Below are positions 32,869-41,700 of a stretch of DNA of 64,000 bases, in pieces (the first letter of the stretch is position 1; every line of letters starts with the position of its first letter). The DNA is from Paramyrothecium sp. XJ0827. Taxonomy: Eukaryota > Ascomycota > Sordariomycetes > Hypocreales > Stachybotryaceae. The notes under the pieces were generated by a model. That model saw only the letters and a list, made by a program, of their open reading frames with translations, ran no database searches and was not told where the DNA came from. Both the position numbers and the translations under genes were made by a program. The DNA is taken from positions 2,542,001-2,606,000 of the forward strand of contig JAJFPB010000005.1 in NCBI GenBank assembly GCA_020881915.1. The letters run 5' to 3'.

Positions 32869-32876
32869 AAAAAAAA
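32869..32876 (-). terminator. RNA polymerase III terminator of the initiator tRNA gene
   Basis: Eight consecutive T on the minus strand, beginning 9 nt past the tRNA discriminator base. This is the usual position and strength of a Pol III terminator. Confidence 0.85.
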
Positions 32877-32932
32877 GATTTGTGCTAGCAATTGCACGTT
32901 TCGATCGTGCGACCTCCGGGTTATGAGCCCGG

Positions 32933-32988
32933 CTGATGAATGAATTAGCGTCATTGTTGTGGATCCAGAAGGATCGGTGATAACATAC
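32933..32988 (-). other. Ectopic intron-like insert in the initiator tRNA (GT-AG type)
   Basis: The 56 nt begin GTATGT, contain GACGCTAATTC, which includes a fungal branch-site-like GCTAAT 13-18 nt before the end, and finish ATTCATCAG. Exact removal restores G26 followed by C27. Inside, GATCC-TTCT-GGATC can form a 5-bp hairpin. Known nuclear tRNA introns of fungi sit one base 3' of the anticodon and are cut by the tRNA splicing endonuclease; this one has neither that position nor an obvious anticodon-intron pair. Confidence 0.8.
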
Positions 32989-32995
32989 CGCGCTT

Positions 32996-33006
32996 CCACT
33001 GCGCCA
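32996..33006 (-). promoter_or_regulatory. Internal Pol III box A of the initiator tRNA gene
   Basis: TGGCGCAGTGG covers tRNA positions 8-19 and fits the box A consensus. Box B is at 32897..32907. The insert widens the gap between the two boxes to about 88 bp, within the range tolerated by TFIIIC in intron-containing tRNA genes. Confidence 0.75.
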
Positions 33007-33013
33007 AATTGCT

Positions 33014-35984: not shown

Positions 35985-38795
35985 CTAGCTTGGTGTGCCT
36001 TCTTTATTCGACTTCCAGAACTGCATTAGTTTGCTCAGTCGCTTCGTCCTGCTGGTCTTGGATTTTGTTCTCTCTGCTTCATCGCTCATCGGGACCTCCA
36101 TGGATAGCTTGCTTCTCTCACCGTGTGAGCTGCTGATGAGCCGACTGAGGCTGGCAAGGCTTGAACGTCTGCGCCCAAAAGCTGAAGAGACCGACACTGG
36201 CCGCTGTTCGCGAAGGGCAGGCCGTGGCATCCGCAGGTTCGGTGTGTAGGCGCTATCCCGGGTCATTGTCGAGTTGCTTGATGTCAGTGAGGGGATGTCG
36301 TAATCCACCGACAACCTGACTTCTGGGCCTGGTTCTCCCAAGAGTAGTGACTGGAAATTCGTTTCGTCAGCAACGGATGACGGCGCTGTCGAAATCCTTT
36401 GTGCGTCGATGGAGACCGGAGACCTCGGCGATGGAAAAGAAGATGCGTGGCTCATAGAGTATGGGCTGATTGGGATCGTGGCTGGGTTGCCATTTCGGGG
36501 GCCGGACTCAGCCGATGATGAATCCTGCTTCGTTAGGGGTAGGATTGTATGATCTGCCGGCTCTGCGTTGCCATGCGACAAGTTGGCACGAGTTGACGAG
36601 GGCTCCTCAGTGATCGGGTTCTCTTGCAGCGACGTTCTTGAACGCTCCGCCCGAATCGAGTGGGCGCTTGACTGATCCTTGTCGCTCAGACTGGAACCCT
36701 GTCTTCTGACAGCAAGTGGAGTGTCTTGGTTGTCGATGATAAACTCCTTTTGTGGTACGGCTGGCGGAGTTACATCACCATCAGAATGGTCGTCTCTCTC
36801 GGCGTGCCGGGCGGCCCGCCTGTTCCTTGCATCGGCAGCGGACTCATCGTCCTCCTCATCCTCTTCAAACACGTCCGCCATGGTTGAACTGCTCCCAAAG
36901 CGATGAAGCGCCGACCTTCCGGCGTCAAAAGGTGGCAGATCGGGAGCGGACTCAGCACGCCGGTGGTAGTGCATACCTGGTCCGCTGAAACCCTTGAGAC
37001 CCTGAGCACTGTGGAGCCGCCGTTTTCCGACATTACCCGCAGCGCGTTGAGCTGCTTCCCATTCCGGGTTGTGCGGCAATGGAGTGTTGAAGGGACCGAG
37101 GGCGGCGTCCAAGTCGATCATTGGGAGTGTGCTGTCTTCTCCGCGACGCTTTGAGCCGTCAGAGGTTCGCGGCGGTGTTGCTGATGCCGTGATGGTAACC
37201 GTAGGAGTGGTCGTCACGGGACTATGCACAGAGGAAGCCTCCATCTTCTCTTCATCGTCCTCAAGGGATAACGCGGGAGCTGGAGGCGTGGGTGGACGGT
37301 CAGCAACGTCATATTGTTTCTGGCTTTTCGATTTGCGAGGAAGAATAGAGCCAGTCCAACCCTTTGACTTTGACTTGTTCTTTTTGGTCTTCTTCTTTTG
37401 TTTCTTGGCTTTTGTCTTGGCCTGTCCGTCGTCTGTTCCATCTACGGCAGACTCTGAACCATGCTCAGAGGACGAGCCTACCGAGACGGCTCGGGGTGTG
37501 GAGCTTGATGAGCTGGAACTGGAAGGCCGAATCTTTGTCGGTGATCCAGAAGCCGTGAAAGGTTCCAGACCAAAGAAGGACCAGCGCTTGAACGACTTCG
37601 AGGGGCTAGGAGTCGTGGGAGTGACTGCCGAAGCTTCAGACACGTCCAGGAGAGCAGGAATCGAGTTTCGTCGCTTGGGGGATGCGGTCTGGGTGCCATG
37701 AATCGCAGGCTCCTGGGTCCTTTCTAGGATGGCGCCGGCCGTGCTCGGCCTCGACTCATTCAAATCTTTAGTTGGACTTCGTGACAACGGAGCCGGGCTT
37801 TCACGCCCGCTTGGGGAGGCCGCCGACACAACAGAAGAGATGCTCCCAGAAACAGAATGTCCTGGCCGGGCGGTCGCCACGCTAGAAGTATCGCTCGACA
37901 CCATTGACAATGGTCGAGGGATAAATTCCAGAGTGTCGGAGAATCCGACTCGAGCTCTCGCAGGCTTTGGTGCTTGCCCGTCACTTTCGGTAGGGGAAGG
38001 CGTCTCAACAGAGGTCTCGGTCTCCAACGGTTCCATGGGAAACCGAAACGATTCCAGATCTTTCGGTGATTCCGCTTGGATGTTAAGGGTATCCATGGTG
38101 TGCTCGAAGTTTGTCGGACTGGTGGGAGCACTGCTGCCTTTCAGCATCGAGCGGTCGAACGGAGGACTGAGATTTGGCAGGTCGTTGATTGAGATTGCTG
38201 CGCTTGACATTCCCCGGCGATGCCCTCTCTTGGGTGGCTGAAAGGTAGGCGAAGCAAAACCACTCTCGGATCTGGTTGGGCTGGTACTCATCACCGCGAT
38301 TGAATTCCCTTCTCGGAGACGACCACCCACAAACTCGCTCCCGCCTCTCCTGTGACCGTGACCTGCTGGCCGGGCGGGCGAGGGCAAGTCGTTCTTTGGC
38401 GAGTAAGGCGATGTAGGAGGACTGAGCAAAAGCGGCGTATTGGGGTCGGGTGGGAGCGAGGCGCCCGGATTGAAGGTGAAGTCTGGTAGAGCCACGCTGC
38501 CTGCCCTTCGAGGCCTCTCAGCGTTCTCAGCTTTTGGGCTCGGAAGTTTATGCTGTGGCTCAATCGCAGACATTGGTCGTCGTGCAGCTGCTCGTGGCTG
38601 AGAGGGAGGGAGGGAAGGAGTCGAGTCAAGCCGAGCGGGAAAGACGAAATGTGGGTTCGGCGGAGGAAGATGAGGATCCTGTGTCCGGGGGACAGACGAT
38701 GCGTCGGCCGGGCCATCGTAGGGATCGCTTATGTGGGAGGGCATGTTCATATTCGAGGCATCGGCGGCCGGCTCGGGGCCATAAGCGGCTGCCAT
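35985..38795 (-). CDS. Large Ser/Pro-rich disordered protein (often annotated as 'cell wall proline-rich protein')
   Basis: Single exon, 936 aa, starting at the first ATG of the frame (38795). The sequence is mostly disordered and rich in Ser, Pro, Arg and Thr, with many SP/TP sites. There is a repeated RRG-type block: GHRRGGSEF near residue 145 and KRGHRRGMS near residue 190. A polybasic run KTKAKKQKKKTKKNKSKSKG sits in the middle and RRRSSLASLSRLISSS near the C-terminus. No signal peptide or membrane segment is visible, so a cell-wall location, implied by the usual database name, is not supported. The many basophilic and proline-directed sites suggest a phosphorylated scaffold or signalling protein; that is inference. 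Confidence 0.72.
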   Translation of the reverse strand: MAAAYGPEPAADASNMNMPSHISDPYDGPADASSVPRTQDPHLPPPNPHFVFPARLDSTPSLPPSQPRAAARRPMSAIEPQHKLPSPKAENAERPRRAGSVALPDFTFNPGASLPPDPNTPLLLSPPTSPYSPKNDLPSPARPAGHGHRRGGSEFVGGRLREGNSIAVMSTSPTRSESGFASPTFQPPKRGHRRGMSSAAISINDLPNLSPPFDRSMLKGSSAPTSPTNFEHTMDTLNIQAESPKDLESFRFPMEPLETETSVETPSPTESDGQAPKPARARVGFSDTLEFIPRPLSMVSSDTSSVATARPGHSVSGSISSVVSAASPSGRESPAPLSRSPTKDLNESRPSTAGAILERTQEPAIHGTQTASPKRRNSIPALLDVSEASAVTPTTPSPSKSFKRWSFFGLEPFTASGSPTKIRPSSSSSSSSTPRAVSVGSSSEHGSESAVDGTDDGQAKTKAKKQKKKTKKNKSKSKGWTGSILPRKSKSQKQYDVADRPPTPPAPALSLEDDEEKMEASSVHSPVTTTPTVTITASATPPRTSDGSKRRGEDSTLPMIDLDAALGPFNTPLPHNPEWEAAQRAAGNVGKRRLHSAQGLKGFSGPGMHYHRRAESAPDLPPFDAGRSALHRFGSSSTMADVFEEDEEDDESAADARNRRAARHAERDDHSDGDVTPPAVPQKEFIIDNQDTPLAVRRQGSSLSDKDQSSAHSIRAERSRTSLQENPITEEPSSTRANLSHGNAEPADHTILPLTKQDSSSAESGPRNGNPATIPISPYSMSHASSFPSPRSPVSIDAQRISTAPSSVADETNFQSLLLGEPGPEVRLSVDYDIPSLTSSNSTMTRDSAYTPNLRMPRPALREQRPVSVSSAFGRRRSSLASLSRLISSSHGERSKLSMEVPMSDEAERTKSKTSRTKRLSKLMQFWKSNKEGTPS

Positions 38796-41700
38796 TTTCC
38801 CTCGAGCCGCGCGGCGGCAAGGAACAATACTCTGTATTTGCAAGGTTTAGGAGGACATAGGTGTACCGTTCTGCTACTACCAAGGGTGGTAGTTTCGGTG
38901 TGTTTTGTCGGTCCTTGTGCTTCTAAATGCAAATCTATCGTCGAGGGGACAAACAAAGGCTGTTGATCCCGAATTAAAATCTAAATGAATGACTTTGAAT
39001 TAGCACAAGAGCCTGCGGTAATTGTGAAGTATTGTAGTGAGCCCTGTACTGTAGAAAGGGGTGGGAAATGATGGTTGTGGAATTGGTGATCGAAGTTGGC
39101 CAGCAAAGCAACCAGCCTCGTCGGCAGGCCACCGGTTCGATCGGGAAACGGCTAGGGAACACCAACCTGGCAGAAATGGTAAATGCAGATGCTGATGAAT
39201 ACAAAGCCAGGCTCCAAAATTGAATAATGAGTGGACGGTCAAGACCAGCAACAACTCGAGATGAGATTGAAGCCGGAATCGTACCAGGAGGATTGTGGAA
39301 GGGGGGAGAGAGGATGGAGAGGGACTCGCAACAGAGTGTAGGCGCGTGAATGGAGAAGAGGGGAGAAGAGATGCTCGAGACTGGACGAGGAAAAGGTAAA
39401 ATTGAGTTGGGTCTGGGTCTGGGCCTGGTTCAGGCTTAGCGTGGGAATCCGTAGTCGAGATAAGGTACGTACCGGTTGCCCAGCACACTGATCAAGGTAC
39501 CTCCCTACCTCGAGCGCCCTGGGTTGCGCCGATACCTTGCGCTGCACAACGGTGCCAAAAAGCGACCCCGTCGCCCAGGTACCTGCATTACAAGCGCTCG
39601 TACCTGTGATCATTTGCCTAACCCAATACTGCTCCATGCTGTAGCCTTCAGGTATCATCCGCTCTTCCTCTTCTTCTGGGGCATCCACGAGGACTTACAT
39701 TACAACTAGGCGTACTCCCACTACCTTACCTGCTCCCCTCCGGTAGGGACGGAAATATTGACGGCGCTAGCAGTTTAGCTGGAAGCCGGGATTCGAGGAT
39801 GCAGCCACCAGTGGGAATACCAAGGCCATTGTACTGCATGTAACGACGGATGGTCCTGATTCGACCCTTGACGTTGTCTGTTCGGGCTCATACCTGCTCC
39901 CTTTGGCACGAGGCGGCGGTCTAATTGCGAGTCTAAGGTAGGCAACGCGCCCGGGAGACTAATTTTGCGGTACTATACCCTCTGCCTACTACCTATGTTA
40001 GGGAGGTAACTTATGGATACCTTGATTTAGGAAGGACGTGATAATGTGAGGCCACACTATAGGTGCCTGTAGGCGCAGTGAGACAGGGCTGCTCGCAGAC
40101 TTGCAACCGCCGGAACAAAGGATCAGAATGGTGACCTGGGCAACACACCCCGGCTGGAGCAACCAGCGAGCTGCCGACTGTGGGTTTTTGAGGAGTTCCA
40201 TGGCAGAAACGGTGACGAGGGTTTCACGAGACATGGTGCCAAGTGGGTGACAGAAAAAGCGAGACTGCATAGTGAATGATTCTAGAGTTTCTTGTCCCTT
40301 TGTTGTTTCCCTGCCTTTAGCGACATGTACGATAGTGAGCAGGCAAGAATATAATATGGTCGTCATATTCCACGCAATGACTGTATCAAAGCCATCCTCT
40401 CTCAGTCTATCTCAAGTATGCATTCTAAGGACATTGGAACCGTGGATGTCTTGCAGTCACGCCTTTTCTGTCGTCCACTTCCGGGTGCCCATGAAAGACC
40501 TGGAAGGGGAGACATCGCATGTTTCGCACCTACCTCGACGGTGTTTTGCTAATCCTGTTACAGTACAGAGGCGTCTCAAGAATCTGATACAACAATATGG
40601 GACGAAGTTCCTACATCGAAAATCTGGCAACCGAGGCCTGCGATGCACCACTACGCCCTCGATCCAGGACGGCACCTCACTTTCTCTTGGAGAGCAGTCC
40701 TCGAAGCCATCACCAAAAGTTTCGGCTGCAAACTACAGCAGCGGTACATCGCTTGCATGTACCTCGCTGTCCAGCGCGAGCGACCCAAGCTCGGGTTCGT
40801 CCCTCTGGCGAGCAGGTACCTATAGGCTGTAGCGCTGAGTGGAGCACACTAACAATGGGCCCCCCCTTGGCCTTGCGTTTGTCCCCTGGAGACGTGACGA
40901 CCGCATATTGATTGAACGTGGGGGACCCTGGCTCCCAGACACCGAACAGCCCGCTGACGCTATTTATTGTCGGCCTCGAAATCGAGGATCCGCTTTTATG
41001 TCTTGACGGTGTGCTGTAGCGGTTGAAGGAACAGACAGTTGCCTTTTGGTGCTGTACCGCCTGGTTCACCGCCTGGTCCTGCGTGCGCCGACCTGGACCG
41101 CACGCAGTCGTTGTTTTCGACTCGGTCCTCAAATGGCGACCCCGGTCCAAAAGCATTTCCCCCGTCCCCTGCGACTACTAAAACCGGTCACGGGATATGC
41201 ACTAGGTGCTGCAGGATGCAGCTGAGTCCTGATACTGCAATGCTGAACAGATGTGCAGTCCAGGATTGCGGCTGCAGGCACACGGCCACTTAAACCTGAC
41301 AAGGGGGCGCACGGGCGTTGGCGGGCCCCGAAAGATGAGATGACGGGCAAATCAGATGCCTTAGCTCCGCCCAGAAAATCCCCAGCACCGATGCCAGAAA
41401 CAGGCCTCCACACATGACATTGCCAATGCGGATCCGATGGGATTTTTCCTCCCACGATTAGCGCGACCCCTTTACATTAATTCGAGCAAACTTGTACCGC
41501 CTGGTCCAGACGAGGTGCATCAGCGCAATATCGGCACAATCCACATTCTTTGATTGGCGTTGCCGTATTGCAGTACAGTGTGCGCCTAAGCCCATGAGCC
41601 CGAGTCGGCCTTCAAAGCCTCGTAGGTGAGGGATCCTGGGCATCCATGTGAAGGGGCGGCAGATCACAATCGAACCGTATTCCGTCGGCGGCACCACCGA

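Follow-up and report, generated by a model that had tools for sequence, protein, structure and literature searches.

An mRNA-intron-like insert in an initiator tRNA-Met gene of Paramyrothecium sp. XJ0827, a likely substrate of the spliceosome

Introns in tRNA and other small RNA genes

Nuclear tRNA introns are taken as the work of the tRNA splicing endonuclease (SEN) and ligase, and we know of no tRNA that is processed by the spliceosome. Introns of fungal genes follow the consensus GTRWGT, RCTRAY and YAG with 6-36 nt between branch site and acceptor, and the 2017 paper that gives this consensus names U3 and U6 as the sole small structured RNAs for which frequent interruption is known (PMC5832005). 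The fission-yeast U6 RNA is a Pol III transcript from which an mRNA-type intron is spliced out, and introns in U6 are thought to be due to reverse splicing near the catalytic nucleotides (PMC10484740). Ectopic tRNA introns are described for archaea at many positions including 25/26, and some for algae; insertions into the D- or T-arm of eukaryotic tRNA genes are mostly read as pseudogenes, nucleomorphs and a red alga being exceptions (PMC4090602). The search for noncanonical introns in tRNAscan-SE 2.0 is described for archaea (PMC8450103). In the open-licence literature, no precedent was found for a nuclear tRNA gene with a spliceosomal intron.

In the window analysed here, a stretch of 64,000 nucleotides of the Paramyrothecium sp. 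XJ0827 genome, an initiator-type tRNA-Met gene carries a 56-nt insert with the features of an mRNA intron, which is likely removed by the spliceosome from a predicted Pol III transcript. With the fungal U6 introns, two of which are present in the same genome, the insert has in common the GT-AG ends and the CTRAY branch motif within a small Pol III RNA, but U6 belongs to the spliceosome whereas a tRNA is not situated at the splicing centre. Likewise, fungal U3 introns are short GT-AG introns of a structured RNA gene with GTRWGT, RCTRAY and YAG (PMC5832005), but their host is a snoRNA and not a tRNA. Canonical tRNA introns at 37/38, the SEN substrates, also occur in this genome, one of 29 nt in the elongator tRNA-Met genes and one of 12 nt in the Lys(CTT) genes; in contrast, the GT-AG inserts are located at 26/27 and 34/35 and show mRNA-intron signals. 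The ectopic introns of archaea, nucleomorphs and Cyanidioschyzon share the location away from 37/38, but no bulge-helix-bulge core was found at the initiator junction described here.

The interrupted initiator gene and its second copy

The interrupted gene (family B, copy 1) occupies 128 nt of the minus strand, 32886..33013. Exon 1 (32989..33013, 25 nt) comprises tRNA positions 1-26, and exon 2 (32886..32932, 47 nt) comprises positions 27-73 with the anticodon CAT. The GT-AG insert between them (32933..32988) begins with the 5' splice-site-like hexamer GTATGT (32983..32988), contains the branch-site-like sequence GCTAAT (32944..32949) with the branch A 12 nt from the insert end, and ends with the 3' splice-site-like CAG (32933..32935). 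On the same strand we read what we take to be boxes A (32996..33006) and B (GATCGAAAC, 32898..32906) of the internal Pol III promoter, and a terminator-like T8 run at 32869..32876. After removal of the insert in silico, ARAGORN reported a 72-nt tRNA-Met(cat) in which every stem is paired. Direct reading of the spliced sequence shows the pair A1-U72, the bases A54 and A60, and an anticodon stem with GGG/CCC. Together with the CAU anticodon these are the marks of a eukaryotic initiator tRNA-Met, whose anticodon stem contains three G-C pairs, and the spliced 72-mer carries all of them. The initial annotation had placed a 56-nt GT-AG insert between D-arm and anticodon stem at 32886..33013 and had noted a perfect initiator cloverleaf upon its removal; the coordinates proved exact (insert 32988-32933), and the paired stems, the initiator marks and the T8 run bear out the cloverleaf.

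One G is common to both sides of the junction and a cut one base further 5' would yield the same product; only one register gives GT-AG ends. The unspliced copy 1 was not recognized as a tRNA by ARAGORN, with or without introns allowed, and the unmodified window contained no tRNA either for ARAGORN or for Rfam at the gathering score. If the insert is indeed a spliceosomal intron, this would account for tRNA finders missing such genes.

The insert agrees with the full fungal consensus GTRWGT/RCTRAY/YAG, including the spacing of 6-36 nt. When all 56-mers on both strands of the window were scanned for this combination, a single one out of 127,889 fitted, namely the initiator insert itself, the scan being limited to the length of 56 nt. 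The initial annotation had also ascribed to the insert the look of a local spliceosomal intron, and candidate introns of the same form are indeed found nearby. From the reading frames, and requiring a GTRNGT donor and a YAG acceptor, we identified five mRNA intron candidates within the window, three of which contain CTRAY. The candidates in the eIF3m gene and in a gene that we presume from its translation to be DnaJ-like have the anatomy of the initiator insert, the latter with GTATGT and GCTAAC. The protein encoded at 35988-38798 of the window is 89% identical to a protein of Paramyrothecium foliicola, and its next named matches are from Stachybotrys. P. foliicola belongs to the Stachybotryaceae within the Hypocreales.

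The genome holding the window (51.8 Mb, 15 contigs) was searched for the interrupted gene, and at the sensitivity of this search one further copy was found, at C7:742387-742514 on the minus strand. Unspliced, copy 2 gave a spurious Asp tRNA in ARAGORN when introns were allowed. Both exons are identical in the two copies (0/72 differences), and the inserts, which are of equal length, differ at 15 of 56 positions and have the other 41 bases in common (Fisher p 1.2e-6). A T8 run follows copy 2 as well, and the flanks of the two loci align only over a few bases and in the terminator region. Within the insert the differences are unevenly distributed: the donor hexamer and the final 16 nt, from the branch motif to the AG, together show one difference in 22 positions versus 14 in 34 for the remainder (p 0.002). 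This sole change turns CTAAT into CTAAC, so that copy 2 reads GCTAAC, and the GTATGT start, branch-like site and CAG end are all kept in the second copy as GTATGT/CTAAY/CAG. Signals that are kept while the rest diverges are the behaviour of a spliceosomal intron.

The second locus also bears on the possibility that the gene is a freshly broken copy, which the initial annotation had left as an alternative. This is contradicted, because the second locus keeps 72/72 exon bases and the splice signals while the rest of the insert drifts. The argument made there against long decay was the lack of any mismatch in the stems. None of the signs of a tRNA pseudogene, such as stem substitutions or a lost promoter or terminator, was seen: the stems are paired, the internal promoter regions are intact, 72/72 bases are equal at two loci and the T8 run is kept. 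Exon-only gene conversion is an unlikely cause of this identity because the diverged insert sits between the exons.

The insert could also have been retained because it has a function in itself, the cell using the RNA both before and after splicing. The motifs CCGATC, TTC and CAACA in the middle of the insert are common to both copies and would suit such a role, but divergence within the insert is greatest in this middle part and the two copies have different predicted insert folds, so that we regard a role of this kind as extremely improbable.

We considered two ways in which the insert could be removed, as the initial annotation had done: by the spliceosome or by an unusual endonuclease. SEN could cut the inserts as ectopic tRNA introns of the kind known from archaea, nucleomorphs and the red alga Cyanidioschyzon. 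The range of positions used in archaea, 25/26 among them, and the occurrence of some such introns in algae are in line with this (PMC4090602), and the canonical-place intron of the elongator genes implies that SEN substrates are present here. The initiator insert, however, lies at 26/27 and not at the canonical 37/38, and the archaeal-type motif, a 4-bp core between two 3-nt bulges, was not found at the initiator junction: with the strict motif and in those registers that leave the mature tRNA unchanged, at most three of four pairs formed in either copy. Furthermore, what is conserved between the copies is GT, CTRAY and AG and not a paired junction, and the predicted folds disagree. Removal by SEN is hence unlikely in our estimation. 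Of the two processing routes originally proposed, the spliceosome is favoured by the kept signals, by a second tRNA family and the U6 gene with similar inserts (see below) and by the local mRNA introns; the endonuclease is disfavoured by the absence of the archaeal-type core at the initiator junction. With the spliceosome as the processing machinery, Pol III would transcribe through the initiator insert and the spliceosome would join G26 to C27 exactly.

Initiator genes without an insert

A census of initiator-type genes was made with an anticodon-arm pattern allowing up to two mismatches and with a pattern for the 3' half (13 matches, control 8). It yielded five nuclear genes, the two interrupted genes of family B and three uninterrupted genes, termed family A. 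The latter are identical to each other and are situated on contigs C7, C8 and C12 (L005:1475-1546, plus strand; L007:1471-1542, minus strand; L008:1475-1546, plus strand). They score 64 bits against RF00005 and bear the same initiator marks as family B, from which they differ at 17 of 72 positions (55/72 match). Family A is absent from the RF00005 list for the genome, which covers 63 of 1480 candidates scored. The exact anticodon arm of family B occurs at two places only in the genome, and since these are the two interrupted genes, an uninterrupted B copy was not found. A sequence close to that of the anticodon arm, CGGGCTCATAACCTGT, belongs to a dispersed repeat with 33 places among the matches listed, of which contigs C2 and C4 account for 21 (e.g. 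L009, L010, L014); the 14 copies inspected sit in repeats and were dismissed as tRNAs.

Because of the three uninterrupted initiator-like genes, interrupted family B is not the sole source of initiator tRNA, and its genes may be dispensable. Intact initiator genes elsewhere, next to a silent interrupted one, had been named in the initial annotation as evidence that would speak against it. Half of this was encountered: three uninterrupted genes are present, but they are of a different sequence and none is of the B type.

It could accordingly be asked whether the interrupted genes are decaying or silent and family A makes all initiator tRNA. Besides the three identical genes, the customary treatment of arm insertions in eukaryotic tRNA genes as pseudogenes (PMC4090602) would be compatible with silence. 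On the other hand, 72/72 exon bases were kept at two loci whose inserts and flanks have diverged, and T8 is present in both. As described below, no uninterrupted elongator gene was found with the patterns used either, and the compensatory changes seen in the elongator exons are the only ones there. We therefore rate silence of the interrupted genes as very unlikely. Under the preferred reading, removal by the spliceosome, the spliced B product would act as initiator beside the three uninterrupted initiator-like genes.

Elongator tRNA-Met genes and the U6 gene

Two further tRNA-Met genes with GT-AG inserts were found, at C8:2331578-2331737 (L098:99-258, plus strand) and at C10:1801588-1801741 (L099:59-212, minus strand). 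We take them to be the elongator genes on account of the CAT anticodon and their likeness to elongator sequences. Each has a GT-AG insert at 34/35 in addition to a 29-nt intron at 37/38: a 35-nt exon ending with C34 is followed by an insert of the form GTTAGT...CTRACC...AG (57 or 51 nt), by ATA, by the 29-nt intron and by a second exon of 36 nt; each gene has a T5 run a few bases beyond its end. The unspliced elongator gene gave a spurious His tRNA in ARAGORN. With the GT-AG insert alone removed, ARAGORN called a tRNA-Met(cat) whose 29-nt intron lies at the canonical place, and with both inserts removed a 74-nt tRNA-Met(cat). The exons of the two genes agree at all but 2 of 74 bases, and these two changes make up a single compensatory acceptor pair. 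The 29-nt intron is identical in both, and an alignment of the GT-AG inserts has 38 identical columns out of 65; identity between the two genes sets in precisely at AG|ATA. Some observations count against a spliceosomal reading of these inserts. The donor GTTAGT is off GTRWGT by one base, the acceptor is AAG in one of the two genes, and an alternative cut without GT-AG ends, within a shared TC, would give the same mature product. Compared with the consensus, the donors of the elongator and U6 inserts are weaker than that of the initiator insert.

In the elongator transcript the spliceosome would act first and the tRNA splicing endonuclease second, since the anticodon adjoins the intron stretch with which it pairs only after the GT-AG insert has been removed. 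In the folded model of this intermediate, TCATA of the anticodon loop is predicted to pair with TATGA in the 29-nt intron, the D-arm being misfolded in the same minimum-energy model.

A classical elongator gene was not detected when the genome was searched with two ordinary-elongator patterns, which gave 34 matches (control 17) and 26 matches (control 28). The D-stem was checked in 58 of these 60 matches, two second mitochondrial copies being left out, and four of four pairs were present in seven: two mitochondrial genes, the three family A genes and the places C12:3300231 and C7:3956657. As long as no classical elongator was at hand, family A was considered for this function; this was dropped once the interrupted elongator was found. 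A looser pattern for the 3' half is as such not enriched, because it matched 22 times versus 27 times in the control. Six of the 22 have a full T-stem; two of these are the elongator genes and the other four were set aside, as ARAGORN labels them as Ala, Leu, Tyr and His genes with introns. No uninterrupted elongator gene was thus found with these patterns, which may overlook genes whose arms or T-loops are unusual. On contig C6 the mitochondrial tRNA set occurs twice, about 30.8 kb apart, as if the circle had been laid out more than once.

More tRNA genes with such inserts were sought with two patterns. A D-arm followed by GTATGT at 26/27 matched six times (control 0); two matches are the B genes, and the other four were discarded for want of a full D-stem by eye. 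A generic pattern of branch motif, AG and T-arm was not enriched, with 89 matches versus 244 in the control. In a T-stem check of all 89, five of five pairs were present in four: one elongator gene, two Gln-like genes and one other place. The Gln-like genes were rejected as further cases, their own D-loop fitting the pattern. Other donors at 26/27 and the branch sites CTGAC and CTAAT lie outside these two patterns, and more such genes may exist. The interrupted structure had no match in the collections viral_contigs and genome_contigs, which do not contain fungal genomes as such.

The U6 gene of the same genome appears to be interrupted as well. Matches to RF00026 were obtained only in two adjacent pieces on contig C8, below the gathering score (47 of 3022 candidates scored), with E values of 7e-5 and 0.0016 on a 371-base region. 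The same search at E 0.1 gave weak matches in 4 of 14 prokaryote controls, which we count against the assignment. The pieces are separated by two putative introns on the plus strand, GTCAGT...CTAAC...CAG of 51 nt (L104:94-144) and GTGCGA...CTAAC...CAG of 53 nt (L104:172-224), each with the branch A 11 nt from its end. Joining at these sites restores AACgAUA|CAGAGAAG and CCCCUGC..|AAGGAUGACAC of the model, the 5' exon boundary having been set by eye.

As judged from the sequences of these genes, it is probable, though we hold this with less confidence than the reading of the initiator insert, that all elongator Met-tRNA and one of the two initiator families come from Pol III transcripts that cannot be completed without the spliceosome, the endonuclease acting after it in the elongator, with U6 made by the same route. 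Every internal AUG would then depend on a tRNA processed by the spliceosome. If true, tRNA genes that need the spliceosome join two splicing systems kept apart in current accounts, and spliceosomal introns can enter highly constrained small Pol III genes and persist there. Whether the spliceosome splices Pol III transcripts besides U6 can now be tested directly.

With regard to canonical introns, nine tRNA genes (L036, L039-L042 and L044-L047) that ARAGORN labels Ser(cga) were read as Lys(CTT) genes with the 12-nt intron at the canonical place.
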